DNA of 64,000 nucleotides from Desulfobacca sp. (GTDB lineage: Bacteria; Desulfobacterota; Desulfobaccia; Desulfobaccales; Desulfobaccaceae), in NCBI GenBank assembly GCA_020725545.1, contig DYEV01000027.1:1-64000 (forward strand), in the 5' to 3' direction. The position numbers and the translations under genes were made by a program. Below are positions 36,044-42,428 of the stretch, one piece after another. The notes under the pieces are model-generated. The model did not search any database and had not been told where the DNA came from. It saw only the letters and a program-made list of their open reading frames with translations. How positions within the stretch are numbered: position 1 is the stretch's first letter; every line of letters begins with the position of its first letter.

Positions 36044-37234
36044 ATGTTTCCCGTGGCAATAAAAGAAAACATCTACTGGGTCGGTGCCATCGACTGGAAT
36101 ATCCGGGACTTCCATGGCTATTCCACTTACAAAGGCACGACCTACAACGCCTATCTCATCCTGGATGAAAAAATCACCCTGGTGGATACGGTCAAATACC
36201 CCTTTCGGGGGGAATTACTCAATAACATCCGGCAGCTCATCGATCCCGCCAAGATCGATTACCTCATTGTTAACCATGTGGAGATGGACCATGCCGGGTC
36301 TATCCAGGAAGTGGTCAATCTGGTAAAACCCGAAAAGATTTTTTGCTCGGCCATGGGTCACAAGACCATGTTGGCTTACAACTTTCCGGCCGACTATCCT
36401 TACGAGGTAGTAAAGACCGGCCAGACCATCAGTTTGGGAAAAAAGACCGTCCAGTTCATCGAAACCCGCATGCTGCACTGGCCGGACAGCATGTTCTCCT
36501 ATCTTCCTCAGGATAAGCTACTTATCTCCAGTGACGCCTTCGGCGAGCATTGGGCCACCAATGAACGGTTTGACGACCAGGTGGATATGGCTGAGCTTAT
36601 GGCCCATGCCGCCAAATATTACGCCAACATCCTCTTGCTCTACTCGCCGCTGGTGCAAAAACTCCTGGCCGATGTCCAACAAATGGGTCTGGACATCGAC
36701 ATGATTGCCCCGGACCATGGCCTCATCTGGCGGAGCAACCCCCAAGCTATTATTCAGGCCTACGACCGCTGGAGCCGGCAGGAGACCGCCCAGAAAGCCG
36801 TAGTCATCTACGACACCATGTGGCACAGCACCGAGAAAATGGCCCACGCCATCGTCGAGGGCTTGACCCGGGAAAACATCTCCACCCGGCTCATGAGCCT
36901 CAAGGCCAACCACCGCAGCGAGATCATGACCGAGGTGTTGGACGCCAAGGCCATCATCTGCGGCAGCTCCACCCTGAACAACAACATGCTGCCCACCATG
37001 GCCGACATACTCACCTATATGAAGGGCCTAAAACCGGTGGACCGGATCGCCGCCGCCTTCGGCTCCTATGGCTGGAGCGGCGAGGCTGTGGGCCAGATCA
37101 ATCAATATCTGGAGGAGATGAAATTCACTCTGGCCAGCCCGGGTATCAAGGTCCTTTACGGCCCCAGTGCCGCGGATCTCCAACAATGCCTGGAGCTGGG
37201 CCGCCAGATCGGCCGCCAGATTAAGGAGCAGTAG
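36044..37234 (+). CDS. fprA: FprA-family flavodiiron protein
   Basis: A 396-residue protein. The N-terminal beta-lactamase-like di-iron domain has the ligand motif H78-x-E80-x-D82-H83 (NHVEMDHAGS) and later ligands in ETRMLHWPDS, the Asp in SSDAFGEH and the His in APDHGLIWR. A flavodoxin domain begins near residue 250 (VVIYDTMWHSTEKMA). It reduces oxygen to water, or nitric oxide, with electrons from rubredoxin. Its 3' end overlaps the convergent polymerase gene by 14 nt. Confidence 0.94.
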   Translation: MFPVAIKENIYWVGAIDWNIRDFHGYSTYKGTTYNAYLILDEKITLVDTVKYPFRGELLNNIRQLIDPAKIDYLIVNHVEMDHAGSIQEVVNLVKPEKIFCSAMGHKTMLAYNFPADYPYEVVKTGQTISLGKKTVQFIETRMLHWPDSMFSYLPQDKLLISSDAFGEHWATNERFDDQVDMAELMAHAAKYYANILLLYSPLVQKLLADVQQMGLDIDMIAPDHGLIWRSNPQAIIQAYDRWSRQETAQKAVVIYDTMWHSTEKMAHAIVEGLTRENISTRLMSLKANHRSEIMTEVLDAKAIICGSSTLNNNMLPTMADILTYMKGLKPVDRIAAAFGSYGWSGEAVGQINQYLEEMKFTLASPGIKVLYGPSAADLQQCLELGRQIGRQIKEQ

Positions 37235-39584
37235 ACAGCCGACCCTGCCAGGGCCAGAGGACCTCGTCCACCGCCTTGGCCAGCAGCTCCAGATAATACT
37301 TCCGGTCATACCGGTCCAGGGTGTCGCTGAAAGGGGCGGCCAGAACCCGCCCCTCCGGCGGCCCCTGCCGATCCCGGACAAGGTAACGGATCTTTTCCCC
37401 CGGTACCAACCGGATGCCGGCCGCTTCCAACTGCCGGGCCGCCAGGGCCGTATGCGTCTGCACCCGGAACTCGGCGAGCGGCCGGGACAACACCTTAGTG
37501 ATCACCAGATCCTGGGGCTGGACCAACCCCTGGTCCAGAAGCAGACGCCACTCGGTCACTATTTCCTGAAAATCACCCCACTTTTTCAAGCCATCCTCCC
37601 AATCCTGGACCCCGGCCAAGCGCGCCAACAACGCCTCCTGGGCCCGCCGCACCAGCGGCGGCGTATCCCGCCGCCGACACATCAACCCCCGATACTTCAA
37701 CGTGCCGTCCTGAAACACCCCATAATACCGGTTGGGCACCGGCCGCCCTTCCTGCTGCACCGACGGCAGAAAAACAATCCACCGATACACCCCCTCCAAC
37801 GCCATAGTCACCCCTGTAGCCGCAGTGATGCGCCGGCAGAGGTCCAGGAGGTCGGTTTGGTGGAGGTGTTGAGTGTACGTGGGGAGGAGGCGAGGGGCCA
37901 ACGGCCCCTCCCCCCTCCCCACGCCCCACCCCCAACCCCCGTCTGGGATTGGGAGGGGGTGTGGGGGAGGGCAGGGAGCACTGCTCTCTGGCCCTCCCCC
38001 ACAAAACCCAATCATCCCGTCCACTCTTCCTCCATTCACCCGCCTGATCCACAGGCAATCGGTCAGGCCGTGGAGGACCTCGTAGCCGGCGTCTTCGCAG
38101 ATTTCCTTGGCGGTGAGGAGTTTTTCCCGGCCGTAGGCGGTGACGGCTTCATGGGCTTCGATGCGGCCGAAACGGGCGTTTTTGTAGCCCAGGTAGCCGA
38201 AGCAGGTGACCAGGATCCATTTCAGGGCGGTCTGCCGGGCCTTGAAGTCCGCGGCGGTGGCCGGGTCGGGGGCGGTTTGGGCCCGGGCTTTCAGGCGGGC
38301 CCGCAGGTCCAGGATGGGTCTGAGGGTGCGGGGCACCAGGCCTTCCCGGTGTTGACAGAGGACGTAGTTGTCTTCCGGCACCCGAGGTGCGGCGCAGCAG
38401 GGGCAGTCAACGGTCTCCGGCGAAATGTTGTGGATGGCCATGATGGTGGGGTACATGGAGGCAAAATCGATTTCGGCCACGTCGGTATGGAAGCCCACCG
38501 GCGGCTGGAAGACCAGGCCGCCTTTGTCCGCGGTGAGAAGTTGGGCCGCGGTCTTGAAACGCTCCGGTTCGCCTTTGCGCCAAGGGATGAGGATATTGTC
38601 GGCCACGGCCCGGGCCAGCTGCATGGAGGTGATGAGGGTTCCAGGGCTGGTGCGGGCCAACTGTTGTAGGGGGATCTGTCCCAGGCGGGCGAGCTGGGCC
38701 AGGCCGGGGAGGCCCGTCTCCCGGTAGAAGAAAGAATTGCGCCGGTCCACGTGCCAGCGGCCGTAGCAGGGGACGGAGGGGCCCTGATAGACGATGCGGC
38801 CGTAGGAGAAATAAGACCGGCCCTGGGGGGTGAGGTGTCGGGGCGGCGGGGTCGGGTCCCGGTCCAGGGGCAGGGGACAGCGGTATTGGCGGCTCCAACG
38901 CCAGAGGAGCGGCAGGATATGTTCGTCGCCCCAATCGCTGAGGATGAGGTCGGGGTCACAACGCCGGAGAAAACCGGCCAATTCGCGCAGCAGGGTAGGG
39001 ATGTTGTCGGCCGTCAGTTCCACCGTCCGTCCTTCCCAGGTGAGGGCCAGGCCGTTGCCCCGGCCCAACGGGATGAGGTAGTCCCGGGTCAGGGCCATCT
39101 CCAGGGTGGTGAGGGGCGGCAGGGTGAGGTCTTCCTGGAACTGCGCCTCCAAGGCGGTCCAGGCGGTGAGCCGGTCGCCGTCTGCTTCCAGCTCATACCA
39201 GGAGCAGGGGTAGAGGCCCCGGGTGTAGAGGTAATAGGAGGCGATATCCAGATCACAGTGGTAAAAGGTAAAATCCTCTTCCAGGGCGCCCAGGAAGGCC
39301 AGCAGCCGGGGCCGCTGTTCGTAGGATGTGACCTCCAGGCAGAGGACCGGGACGGTGCGCCCGCTGGCCAGATCGATTTTCTCCTCAAAGCAGGCGTGCC
39401 GGACCCAGCCCTGGGCCCGCAGATGCTGAGCCAACCGCCGCAGTTGGGCTGCCTCACCCCAGGCGTAGAGCCGGTAGCTGAAGCTGTCGGTCAAACGGAG
39501 GCGGTGGCCGTCCGCAGTGAGGAACCATAGAACCACCTGGGAGCGCCAGGGGTAGAGGTCAAAGAGCCAGCCCCGGATCGTCAT
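37221..39584 (-). CDS. family-B DNA polymerase, PolB2-like, with degenerate active-site motifs
   Basis: A 787-residue PolB homologue from ATG 39584. Motif A is kept (EIDFASMYPTIM, D373), but motif B reads KWILVTCFGY from K455, with Val459 where the family has Asn, and motif C reads VLHGLTDCLW, with Leu507 for the first Asp of DTD and only D509 left. In the exonuclease domain the DIE motif is replaced by LEMALT, so proofreading looks lost. This is the pattern of the inactivated PolB2 clade known from archaea and some bacteria. A Cys cluster CPCC...CQH follows motif A. A Gly/Pro-rich insert follows motif C. It is downstream of a small helical protein, a RecA-like gene and lexA. Confidence 0.85.
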   Translation of the reverse strand: MTIRGWLFDLYPWRSQVVLWFLTADGHRLRLTDSFSYRLYAWGEAAQLRRLAQHLRAQGWVRHACFEEKIDLASGRTVPVLCLEVTSYEQRPRLLAFLGALEEDFTFYHCDLDIASYYLYTRGLYPCSWYELEADGDRLTAWTALEAQFQEDLTLPPLTTLEMALTRDYLIPLGRGNGLALTWEGRTVELTADNIPTLLRELAGFLRRCDPDLILSDWGDEHILPLLWRWSRQYRCPLPLDRDPTPPPRHLTPQGRSYFSYGRIVYQGPSVPCYGRWHVDRRNSFFYRETGLPGLAQLARLGQIPLQQLARTSPGTLITSMQLARAVADNILIPWRKGEPERFKTAAQLLTADKGGLVFQPPVGFHTDVAEIDFASMYPTIMAIHNISPETVDCPCCAAPRVPEDNYVLCQHREGLVPRTLRPILDLRARLKARAQTAPDPATAADFKARQTALKWILVTCFGYLGYKNARFGRIEAHEAVTAYGREKLLTAKEICEDAGYEVLHGLTDCLWIRRVNGGRVDGMIGFCGGGPESSAPCPPPHPLPIPDGGWGWGVGRGEGPLAPRLLPTYTQHLHQTDLLDLCRRITAATGVTMALEGVYRWIVFLPSVQQEGRPVPNRYYGVFQDGTLKYRGLMCRRRDTPPLVRRAQEALLARLAGVQDWEDGLKKWGDFQEIVTEWRLLLDQGLVQPQDLVITKVLSRPLAEFRVQTHTALAARQLEAAGIRLVPGEKIRYLVRDRQGPPEGRVLAAPFSDTLDRYDRKYYLELLAKAVDEVLWPWQGRLSTAP
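37892..38002. repeat. GC-rich hairpin element inside the polymerase gene
   Basis: GAGGGGCC/GGCCCCTC (37892-37899 with 37903-37910) and a 12-bp perfect stem GTGGGGGAGGGC with its complement (37961-37972, 37991-38002), extended by AGGGAGC/GCTCTCT. The stretch is translated as a Gly/Pro-rich insert of about 45-50 residues between motif C and the conserved DLLDLCRRITAATG. Family members go straight from one to the other, so it looks like an in-frame insertion. Confidence 0.75.
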
Positions 39585-39846
39585 GGCGGTCTTTCTCCTC
39601 CAACCGGCGCAGCCGCTCTTCCAGGGCGGCCAGGGCCTTTTGCTGCTCCAGGAGCATGGACATGAGGATAGTCTCCAACGGCCAGGGCTGGGAGGCATAG
39701 ACCCCGGCCTGGGTGTGGCGCCGGGCCAGCTCAAAAAGCCGGTCGAAATAGGGTTGATCCTCTTGGCGCAAGGCCCGCCGGAACTTCTGCCAGCGGCTGC
39801 GCTCCTCGTCCAGGATCTGGGTATAGGGTATGACAGTGCGGCCCAT
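39559..39846 (-). CDS. small helical protein encoded ahead of the polymerase
   Basis: A 95-residue protein, MGRTVIPYTQILDEERSRWQ, mostly helical with a C-terminal coiled coil (EQQKALAALEERLRRLEEKD). No family is recognised. It overlaps the polymerase start by 26 nt, so it is probably translated with it and may be an accessory subunit. Its ATG directly follows a 7-bp-period repeat (ACCACTA), leaving no normal ribosome binding site; the repeat may have displaced the original leader. Confidence 0.65.
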   Translation of the reverse strand: MGRTVIPYTQILDEERSRWQKFRRALRQEDQPYFDRLFELARRHTQAGVYASQPWPLETILMSMLLEQQKALAALEERLRRLEEKDRHDDPGLAL

Positions 39847-39894
39847 GGTAGTGGTTAGTGGCCAGGGGTAGGGGCGGGGTAACCCCGCCCCTAC
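39847..39894. repeat. 7-bp repeat block plus REP palindrome (copy A)
   Basis: 39847-39867 is a short GGTTAGT/GGCCAGG block. 39868-39894 is a 27-bp palindrome: GTAGGGGCGGGGT, a central A, and ACCCCGCCCCTAC. Identical copy B lies at 40197-40223 inside the neighbouring transposase gene. Confidence 0.9.
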
Positions 39895-40577
39895 GGTTTT
39901 TTTGGTCGTTTAACGGGCCTCGTATGAAAAGACGCCAGCCAGCGGTCAAATTTGTCGTCCCCCTGCCGTTGAGGATTTTCCTGGTCCAGGTCCCACCGCC
40001 GGGGGTTGGTGAGGATGTATTCCCGGATGCGGGTCAGGGAGTCTTCGTTCCGGATGACGTGTTCGTAATAGTTGCGCTGCCAGAACTTGGTTCCTGGTTG
40101 TCGGCGGAGAAGATTGATCATTTTGGTGGTTTGATATTTGAAATAGCCAACGACCTGCCCTAACGTCGGTTGAGGCGTCGGGGCCGTTTCATCCCTGTAG
40201 GGGCGGGGTAACCCCGCCCCTACAGGCGGCCCCACCTCCACTTTTCCCCTGCCAGCTGGTCGGCAGGTCCTGCCCAGGGGTAACCCCGCCCCTACAGGCG
40301 GCCCCACCTCCACCCCTCCGAGGACTATCACGCCATGCACATGGTTCGGCATGACCACAAAGGCATCCAAGCTGACCCCGGGATAATGGTTCGGCAGAGC
40401 ATACCAGCAATCCTGGACAATCTTGCCGAAATCGTTTGCCTGCATAACGCCATCCCGCACTTCTCCCAACACACACTCCCGCCCCTGCACACAGATAGTA
40501 ACAAAATACGCCCCGGCCTGGGCATAATCATACTCCGGCAGGCGGAGGGAGCGGCGGCGAGGCGAGGTTTGAGCCAT
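39891..40577 (-). CDS. REP-associated tyrosine transposase (Y1_Tnp, IS200-like)
   Basis: A 228-residue RAYT protein. N-terminal RRRSLRLPEYDYAQAGAYFVTICV, the HUH metal motif in MPNHVHGVIVL, and the catalytic Tyr region WQRNYYEHVIRNEDSLTRIREYI, followed by NPRRW and DLD. The family binds REP palindromes and is thought to mobilise them. Its middle has two tandem copies of VEVGPPVGAGLP that are translated REP elements, so the protein carries an insert of about 40 residues between HUH and Tyr motifs. The 3' end touches REP copy A. It interrupts the lexA-recA-like-polB gene string. Confidence 0.9.
   Translation of the reverse strand: MAQTSPRRRSLRLPEYDYAQAGAYFVTICVQGRECVLGEVRDGVMQANDFGKIVQDCWYALPNHYPGVSLDAFVVMPNHVHGVIVLGGVEVGPPVGAGLPLGRTCRPAGRGKVEVGPPVGAGLPRPYRDETAPTPQPTLGQVVGYFKYQTTKMINLLRRQPGTKFWQRNYYEHVIRNEDSLTRIREYILTNPRRWDLDQENPQRQGDDKFDRWLASFHTRPVKRPKKP
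40197..40313. repeat. REP copies B and C inside the transposase gene
   Basis: Copy B at 40197-40223 is the exact 27-bp palindrome of copy A, followed by AGGCGGCCCCACCTCCAC (40224-40241). Copy C at 40277-40295 keeps only the right half (GGGGTAACCCCGCCCCTAC) with the same following 18 bases (40296-40313). Both remain in frame. Confidence 0.9.
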
Positions 40578-40717
40578 GCTCTCTCCTTCACCCTATCTAT
40601 GCCCGCCTATCCCAGCCGCCAGGCCGGCTGCTCCAGGAAATGGAAGTTGTTGACCTGGAGCCAGTGTCTCGGCGGGTGGTCGGGGGAAATAGTGGCTGTA
40701 CGGGCTGGAGCGCACAT

Positions 40718-41260
40718 TCACGACCCTAAGAGCCTGCCTGCCGCCGCCACTCTTTCTGGCGGCCGTCCGGATAACGCCCGCCGCACCGCCGTCCTCGCCT
40801 CGCCCCCCACCCGAACAACCTGGTCCGCCAGGCGGGCCAGGAGGCGGCCGAAATGCTGGTTGGCCACCTGCGGCGGCAGGCTGGGCTGCAGGAACCACAA
40901 GGCCGCCCGCTTTTTGATCTGGGCCAGGGCCCCCAGCATGGTGCGGAAGAGCCGCCGGCGCTCCGGCAAGGGCACCTGTTCGTCGTAGAAGAGGCTGCAG
41001 GGGCCCAGGAGAATCACCAAGGCCGGCTCCGCCCCGGCCAAGGCCGCGGGCAGGCCTTCTTGCACCAACTGCACCAGTTGGTGGCAGGTGAAGGCCCGGG
41101 CCACTTGCACCTGCTGGAGGACCACATCTGGGGGCAGCCCCCGTTTCCGACCCTCCCGCACCAACTCATAGGGGTCGAAGCGGTTGGCCGCATCCACCAC
41201 AAAGACCAGCACCCCCTGGGCCACCCCCCAGGCCGCGGCCGCGGCGGTGAGGGGGCGCAT
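40718..41260 (-). CDS. RadA/RecA-like protein without a visible P-loop
   Basis: About 180 residues from ATG 41260. The region VLVFVVDAANRFDPYELVREGRKRG...VLQQVQVARAFTCHQLVQLV matches the RadA/Rad51 core just after Walker A (compare VVYIDTEGTFRPERI and YARAFNTDHQ), and ALVILLGPCSLFYDE the Walker B strand. The Walker A GxxGxGKT is absent: upstream is LLAFGTAMRPLTAAAAAWG, then 7-bp repeat. Either the P-loop has degenerated, as in ImuA/SulA-like proteins, or the 5' end was replaced. A longer frame to 41377 is mostly translated repeat. It sits between lexA and the polymerase. Confidence 0.7.
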   Translation of the reverse strand: MRPLTAAAAAWGVAQGVLVFVVDAANRFDPYELVREGRKRGLPPDVVLQQVQVARAFTCHQLVQLVQEGLPAALAGAEPALVILLGPCSLFYDEQVPLPERRRLFRTMLGALAQIKKRAALWFLQPSLPPQVANQHFGRLLARLADQVVRVGGEARTAVRRALSGRPPERVAAAGRLLGS

Positions 41261-41283
41261 GGCCGTGCCGAAGGCGAGGAGAG

Positions 41284-41360
41284 AGTGGTTAGTGGCCAGG
41301 GGCCAGGAGTTAGTGGTCAGGGGCCAGGGGTTAGTGGTCAGTGGTCGGTGATTAGTGGTA
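41284..41360. repeat. long 7-bp-period repeat block ahead of the RecA-like gene
   Basis: Eleven units such as GGTTAGT, GGCCAGG, GGCCAGG, AGTTAGT, GGTCAGG, GGTCAGT, GATTAGT. It lies between the four-helix-bundle gene and the RecA-like gene. Confidence 0.9.
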
Positions 41361-41373
41361 TGCCGGGCCATGG

Positions 41374-41778
41374 TCAAACCTTTCTGTGCTTTCCTGCCGA
41401 TCTTGGCGTGCTGTTTCTGAGGGCGGCCAGGAGTCCGTTAAGCAACTTGCCAACTGCGGTGGCAGCCTCGGATAAATGGGAGAGCTGTTCTTCCGTAAGA
41501 TAATGTAAATTTTTGGCGATATACAGTTGGGTTTCGAGTTCGGCTAATGAGCCACGCGCGTGTCCCAAAAATTGTCTGAATTCTCCAGTGGAAGCCCGCG
41601 CCTGCCCTTCGGCGAGATTGCTGGGAATGGATACCGCCGCCTGCCGCATCTGCGAGGTTAGACCGAATAGTTCTTCCGGTGGAAGCGTGCGGGTGATGGT
41701 ATAAATTTCGGTCACCACGGCCAGTGCCTTCTGCCAGACCAGCAAATCGCTATAAGATCGAATCGGCCTATCTTGCAT
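41374..41778 (-). CDS. four-helix-bundle protein (S23/23S rRNA IVP family)
   Basis: A 134-residue protein: RSYSDLLVWQKALAVVTEIYTITR, the LPPEELFGLTSQMRQAAVSIPSNLAEGQAR core and SLAELETQLYIAKN. This is the TIGR02436-type family first found in intervening sequences of 23S rRNA genes and now common near repeats in many genomes; its function is not known. 7-bp-period blocks flank it on both sides (41284-41360 and 41803-41822). It separates lexA from the RecA-like gene and looks like an insertion into that gene string. Confidence 0.9.
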   Translation of the reverse strand: MQDRPIRSYSDLLVWQKALAVVTEIYTITRTLPPEELFGLTSQMRQAAVSIPSNLAEGQARASTGEFRQFLGHARGSLAELETQLYIAKNLHYLTEEQLSHLSEAATAVGKLLNGLLAALRNSTPRSAGKHRKV

Positions 41779-41802
41779 AAATCGCTCTCCCTAAGTATCT
41801 TT

Positions 41803-41822
41803 TCCCTGACCCCTGACCCCTA
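41803..41822. repeat. short 7-bp repeat at the lexA stop codon
   Basis: On the minus strand the stop TAG is the first part of TAGGGGTCAGGGGTCAGGG, three near-identical 7-bp units that begin exactly at the stop. Confidence 0.75.
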
Positions 41823-42428
41823 CAACGCCCGATACACCCCCACCACCTTGCCCAGGATCTGCACCAGCTCCGCGGCTTCAGCAGGGGAGAAGCGCAAGGG
41901 TGTGAAGCTCGGATTATCGCCCTTCAGGACCAGGCCGCCGGCCTCTTCATAGACCCGCTTGACGGTGGCCTCGTCGTAGATCAAGACCACCGCGATGTCG
42001 CCCCGGTCCACCCGGGGCTGCACCCGCACCATGACCAGGTCGCCGGGCAGGATGAGGGGCGCCATGCTGTCGCCGCTGACCCGCAGGAGAAAGACCTCAT
42101 CCCCTCGGACCCAGGACCTGGGCAAGGGGAGGGTGTCTTCCACCTGTTGGGTGGCCAACAGGGGTTGCCCGGCGGCGATCTGTCCCAGGATGGGCACCTC
42201 CACCACGGCTTCGGGGCCGCGGCCGACGAGGGTCAGGCCCCGGGAGCGGCCCGGCTCCCGGTGCAGGTAGCCCTTGCGTTTCAGGGCGCTAAGGTGATCG
42301 GCCGCGGCCCGGGGCTGGATGCCGAAATGGGCCGCCACCTCCCGCACCGTGGGCGGGTAGCCCTGCTGCTGAAAAAAGTCTTCCACAAAAGCGAGAACGG
42401 CCTGTTGTTTGGCAGTGAGCGTCTTCAT
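41820..42428 (-). CDS. lexA: LexA repressor
   Basis: A 202-residue LexA: the winged helix (KTLTAKQQAVLAFVEDFF, YPPTVREVAAHFGI), the self-cleavage site A86-G87 in ILGQIAAGQP, the nucleophile S121 in VSGDSMAP and the base K157 in EATVKRVY. It represses SOS genes until RecA filaments trigger cleavage. It differs in the recognition helix (GIQPRAAADHLSALKRKG) from E. coli LexA, so the operator also differs. It heads the string of RecA-like and polymerase genes on the same strand, suggesting they form its damage-inducible unit. Confidence 0.95.
   Translation of the reverse strand: MKTLTAKQQAVLAFVEDFFQQQGYPPTVREVAAHFGIQPRAAADHLSALKRKGYLHREPGRSRGLTLVGRGPEAVVEVPILGQIAAGQPLLATQQVEDTLPLPRSWVRGDEVFLLRVSGDSMAPLILPGDLVMVRVQPRVDRGDIAVVLIYDEATVKRVYEEAGGLVLKGDNPSFTPLRFSPAEAAELVQILGKVVGVYRAL

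Follow-up and report, generated by a model that had tools for sequence, protein, structure and literature searches.

The locus described here raises the question of why a gene for a REP-associated tyrosine transposase (RAYT, or TnpAREP) carries, within its own coding sequence, the same REP palindrome that stands at its 3' end, and whether the protein tolerates this sequence or has been inactivated by it. We analysed it in the context of the window, i.e., the whole 64,000-nt stretch of Desulfobacca sp. DNA (contig DYEV01000027.1), and found the following features (the palindromes are given without strand).

39891..40577, minus strand: RAYT (TnpAREP) gene, 228 aa, a Y1 HUH nuclease by ORF, profiles, fold match and a 40-protein alignment
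40335..40343, minus strand: HUH motif, H79-V80-H81, with H79 and H81 invariant in the alignment
40005..40019, minus strand: catalytic Tyr motif YxxxN (Y187, N191), invariant in the alignment, 108 residues past the HUH motif
40197..40307, minus strand: REP-derived loop, residues 91-127, predicted from pLDDT to be disordered
39868..39894: double-foot REP (GTAG-hairpin-CTAC), 27 bp, GTAGGGGCGGGGTAACCCCGCCCCTAC, overlapping the RAYT stop codon
40197..40223: identical 27-bp REP inside the gene, an exact copy, codons 119-127 (VGAGLPRPY)
40277..40295: half REP, 19 nt, in the first unit of a 1.5-copy tandem duplication
40205..40241, minus strand: 37-bp direct repeat, copy 2, codons 113-124
40277..40313, minus strand: 37-bp direct repeat, copy 1, codons 89-100; unit of 72 bp

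The sequence GTAGGGGCGGGGTTACCCCGCCCCTAC at 39868-39894, which touches the 3' end of the gene, occurs again without any change at 40197-40223, where the palindrome reaches 33 bp (40194-40226) and its arms are 100% complementary. When the window was shuffled 100 times, the 27-mer never appeared by chance, even with three mismatches allowed. The REP has the canonical double-foot form, GTAG-hairpin-CTAC, with an 8-bp stem, and the GTAG foot of the outer copy provides the RAYT gene with its TAG stop codon (CCG-TAG-GGG). A GTRG-tagged REP hairpin flanks the gene on the 3' side only (39868-39894), as the scan of 38600-41800 revealed no 5' flanking REP. The 18 bases that follow are the same for the two inner copies, which makes a 37-bp repeat with a spacing of 72 nt (24 codons), and both repeats are translated as VEVGPPVGAGLP between the HUH motif and Y187; in-frame REP sequence is thus present between HuH and Y at codons 119-127 and 89-100. 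The first-pass annotation had described a RAYT with its own REPs inside the coding sequence, namely an exact inner copy, a half copy at 40277 and a common 18-base extension with the same translation, and all of this was borne out. A separate REP insertion was set aside as the origin of the half copy; since the 37-bp match takes in 18 bp of non-REP flank, at a spacing of 72 bp, the half copy is best read as a product of tandem duplication.

The protein does not reach the cutoffs of the curated RAYT families: PF01797 gives 22.3 bits (E 1.5e-4), just under its cutoff of 23, and NF047646 (REP_Tyr_transpos, the NCBIfam model of REP-associated tyrosine transposases) gives 59.5 bits, below its cutoff of 80. 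As a family cutoff is a convention and not a defining trait, RAYT membership is not excluded on these grounds. According to Quentin et al. 2018, PF01797 aligns just partly with most class 2 TnpAREP proteins (PMC6006769). The Y1 HUH core, i.e., the HUH motif and one Tyr with YxxxN, is present (H79, H81, Y187 and N191). In the 40-protein alignment Y18, Y24, T27, M76, P77, N78, H79, H81, K147, W166, Y187, I188 and N191 are invariant; every one of them is kept in this RAYT, and its reading frame is full-length, without internal stops. The top solved structure found by Foldseek was 4er8, the E. coli TnpAREP with a REP hairpin bound (E 1.2e-6), which shares the HUH/Y1 fold and YxxxN; by sequence the match to this protein is only marginal (E 0.23), and it belongs to subclass 2.2, not 2.4. 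The AlphaFold2 model has a mean pLDDT of 81.2, with most core blocks above 90; it drops below 50 in the REP-derived loop (residues 91-122 and 124-127), which is located between the HUH strand and helix alpha-C. The HUH-Y spacing is 108 here and has a median of 87 in 93 homologues. Of the two outcomes that the first-pass annotation had offered, the tolerated linker is favoured by the predicted disorder of residues 91-127 beside a mostly well-modelled core, and by the homologue linkers, which are very variable. The inactivated enzyme is disfavoured by the family-invariant residues, all kept, and by the low core dN/dS given below.

Such an arrangement has been described before. In Quentin et al. 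2018, in-frame REPs within tnpAREP, generally between HuH and Y, are the hallmark of subclass 2.4; the region of insertion is variable and predicted to be peripheral, the REPs are double-foot and might originate from an inverted dimer that loses its centre, and the median HuH-Y spacing is 88 (PMC6006769). Di Nocera et al. 2013 report REPs in frame inside genes, and GTAG REPs which yield TAG stops (PMC3733652). Because these papers describe it, we regard our case as a well-formed new example of a known arrangement, and a claim of novelty was removed once the case had been tied to published subclass 2.4; no closer report than these two was found in our literature searches. The assignment to subclass 2.4 is made by features and not by the profile of its authors. 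These features are the in-frame position of the REPs between HuH and Y, their double-foot form, a long HuH-Y spacing, an insertion domain that separates the HUH strand from helix alpha-C, and occurrence in many phyla. Compared with the published subclass, our locus differs in having one flanking REP only, which doubles as stop codon, in a REP nearly confined to the gene, and in the 1.5-copy tandem duplication. RAYTs were first described with REPs on both flanks (PMC2817692). The intragenic GTAG REPs resemble ours in being read in frame inside genes and in providing TAG stops with their termini; however, many of their hosts are repair and replication genes (PMC3733652), whereas here the host is the RAYT itself. 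The Rickettsia palindromic elements discussed there are likewise in-frame palindromic repeats in protein-coding genes, but of a different repeat family.

The genome-wide count of this REP, which the first-pass annotation had proposed, was performed by pattern search in the genome assembly (2.94 Mb, 38 contigs, 99.96% complete). It gave two full copies of the 27-mer, both at the RAYT gene, and one partial copy at C25:213093. A degenerate REP pattern gave 8 and 6 matches versus 8 and 11 for the reversed control, so that the control was not exceeded, and a dispersed REP family, with the many copies expected of a REP, was not found by this search in the 2.94 Mb. Given two full copies and a degenerate pattern at or below its control, the term REP is used here for form and association, not for abundance. 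Since dispersed copies are nearly absent from the genome, there is no sign of recent spread.

The RAYT gene is co-oriented with its neighbours in an SOS-like cassette (37221-42428, minus strand).

41820-42428, minus strand: lexA
41374-41778, minus strand: four-helix-bundle gene
40718-41377, minus strand: RecA-like gene
37221-39734, minus strand: polB ORF

A RAYT stands next to polB genes also in two genomes of the same genus (G002 and G003); in a genome of the same family (G004), lexA, the RecA-like gene and polB occur together without RAYT. The G003 orthologue adjoins the same polB gene (L131), its linker holds an identical 27-mer (27/27), and a near-identical REP again supplies its stop codon; the arrangement thus probably predates this species. 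The cores of the two orthologues (G000, the genome studied here, and G003) are 69% identical in DNA and 50% at third positions, and their longest identical run is 15 nt. Core dN/dS is about 0.14 at a dS of about 1.7, a rough value as dS is close to saturation; judged from these coding sequences, the RAYT core is under purifying selection. G003 has two RAYTs and the 27-mer type is found at one of them, while the several dozen REPs dispersed in its genome belong to the type that flanks, and lies inside, its second RAYT. This second gene (L133:360-1280) carries several own REPs of the abundant type in linker and flanks, and REP sequence ahead of the usual start is likewise read in frame. In G002 a 116-aa ORF beside the polB companion gene stops shortly after its linker REP, which is a different one (GTAGGGGCGGTTCGCGAACCGCCCCTAC) and lies near the 3' flank. 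As the companion gene starts within about 70 nt of the end of this ORF, the RAYT of G002 lacks its Tyr half. Such a state would be expected if the DNA between linker and 3' REPs had been deleted.

To extend the comparison we used 80 genome-contig loci together with about 30 from related genomes, the linker being defined as the stretch from HUH to helix alpha-C. In 63 of 95 homologue genes, from many phyla, the linker contains a GTRG hairpin with 8 or more bp, and in 9 such a hairpin occurs elsewhere in the gene, linkers making up about a fifth of gene length. In view of this frequency and of the published subclass 2.4 hallmark (PMC6006769), the arrangement cannot be called unusual, contrary to the first-pass annotation. 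The hairpin stands directly at the foot in 122 of 141 linker GTAGGGG seeds (2.9 expected). As to whether homologous RAYTs share these repeats as an ancestral trait, the idea holds in part: the G003 orthologue, of the same genus, has the same 27-mer in its linker and a REP at the stop codon; in other species the same place is occupied by different REPs in other frames, so we are not dealing with one ancient, unchanged insertion. Among individual loci, one (L006, G005) has a single 429-aa ORF in which a partial RAYT is joined in tandem to a full one, with long REP-derived linker repeats, and another (L111) has two tandem RAYT copies with near-identical linkers.

Linker and flanking REPs were compared at 29 loci having both within 1 kb, with relatedness between loci left uncorrected. 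The mean similarity of a linker REP to its own flanking REP was 0.76 versus 0.25 after shuffling (maximum 0.42), and the two were identical at 14 of the 29 loci (shuffled mean 1.2, maximum 7). That the linker REP is of its own flanking type suggests renewal or co-evolution and not inert junk. In one Anaerolineales clade with common position and frame, the stems of the first REP differ by compensated pairs: 97.2% of cells are paired and the covariation score is 0.344 versus 0.187 shuffled (0/500), a result based on 9 distinct sequences in which two pairs vary. This pattern would be expected from selection on the hairpin as well as from renewal by other copies.

We consider it probable that the gene is an intact-looking TnpAREP of subclass 2.4 with its own double-foot REP at the 3' end and, in frame, in a permissive loop. 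The proposed mechanism is as follows. The enzyme, in its present or an earlier form, would process single-stranded GTAG hairpins, with GTAGGGGCGGGGTTACCCCGCCC as putative substrate, and would paste or convert cognate REP copies near and within its own gene, which may also renew the REPs of the linker. Copies falling in the catalytic core would be lost through selection, and the disordered loop would accept REPs in frames that avoid a stop. A later in-frame tandem duplication of 72 bp would have produced the half copy. The near absence of dispersed REP copies and the presence of REP on one flank only count against this explanation; the activity may have been lost recently in this species alone.

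A related suggestion, which we regard as doubtful, is that the linker REP is maintained or renewed at the DNA level together with the flanking REPs because it is useful to the RAYT, as a self-targeting, autoregulatory or specificity-locking cis tag, and is not passive debris. Somewhat less probable still is its stricter form, in which selection acts on the linker REP as a cis element: the RAYT would bind the hairpin in its gene or mRNA and limit its own expression, or the hairpin would keep enzyme and REP specificity together. The compensated Anaerolineales stems are consistent with this, and so is the 27-mer, identical between G000 and G003 despite their diverged third positions and short identical core runs; however, the same would be expected if linker REPs were renewed from other copies, the covariation comes from few sequences, and the element is dispensable, since the linkers of 13 of 89 homologues contain neither of the feet. 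We find it equally improbable that this RAYT is inactive and in decay, with repeats accumulated in its loop. The very low REP copy number and the loss of the Tyr half at the same locus in G002 would fit such decay, but the uninterrupted frame, the complete set of family-invariant residues and the constraint on the core argue against it.

A single ancient insertion, inherited vertically by all homologues, would explain why the position of the linker REP is common across phyla and its reading frame often common within clades. Nevertheless, it is very unlikely: on a tree of cores with the linker removed (89 rows, many weakly supported branches) at least 45 changes were counted in the both-feet frame state, at least 8 in the forward frame and at least 10 in presence; 79 distinct stem-loops were found, and REPs differ at the same locus within the genus (G002 versus G000 and G003). 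With frames and stem types differing in this way, a single ancestral insertion was rejected. Linkers are also rich in Gly and Pro, and the palindrome might be taken for a by-product of G+C-rich codons for these residues. This is hardly conceivable, since synonymous codon shuffling lowers the number of genes with a hairpin in the linker from the observed 63 to an expected 1.3 (elsewhere in the gene from 9 to 1.8), and the same 27-mer stands at the 3' end, where it forms the stop codon and non-coding DNA; window and synonymous codon shuffling thus ruled out chance and codon bias as its source. The reading as a subclass 2.4 TnpAREP with its own REP in a permissive loop is the one we retain.

With respect to the available texts of PMC6006769 and PMC3733652, three points are apparently new: the type of the linker REP follows that of its own flanking REP, the palindrome is identical between orthologues with nearly saturated synonymous sites, and a same-genus species lacks the catalytic Tyr half and has its linker REP near the 3' flank. 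Jointly, they make the choice between passive debris and a maintained element directly testable in a laboratory strain.

Two further observations concern the neighbouring DNA. The polB gene contains an in-frame, G+C-rich block with palindromes (GTGGGGGAGGG...CCCTCCCCCAC; 37879-38002, minus strand), of which no second full copy was found in the genome. The region of the block has about 59 residues more than in G004; G012, G014 and G019 also lack the block, and polB of G003 has a shorter, different insert at this site. The block fits the published tendency for genes of DNA repair and replication to receive in-frame REP inserts. At 40593-40717 (minus strand), immediately upstream of the RAYT gene, by-eye comparison revealed remnants (VVDVRSSPYS... 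and ...LQVNNFHFHEQPVWRLG) similar to genes which G003 and G002 retain in intact form.
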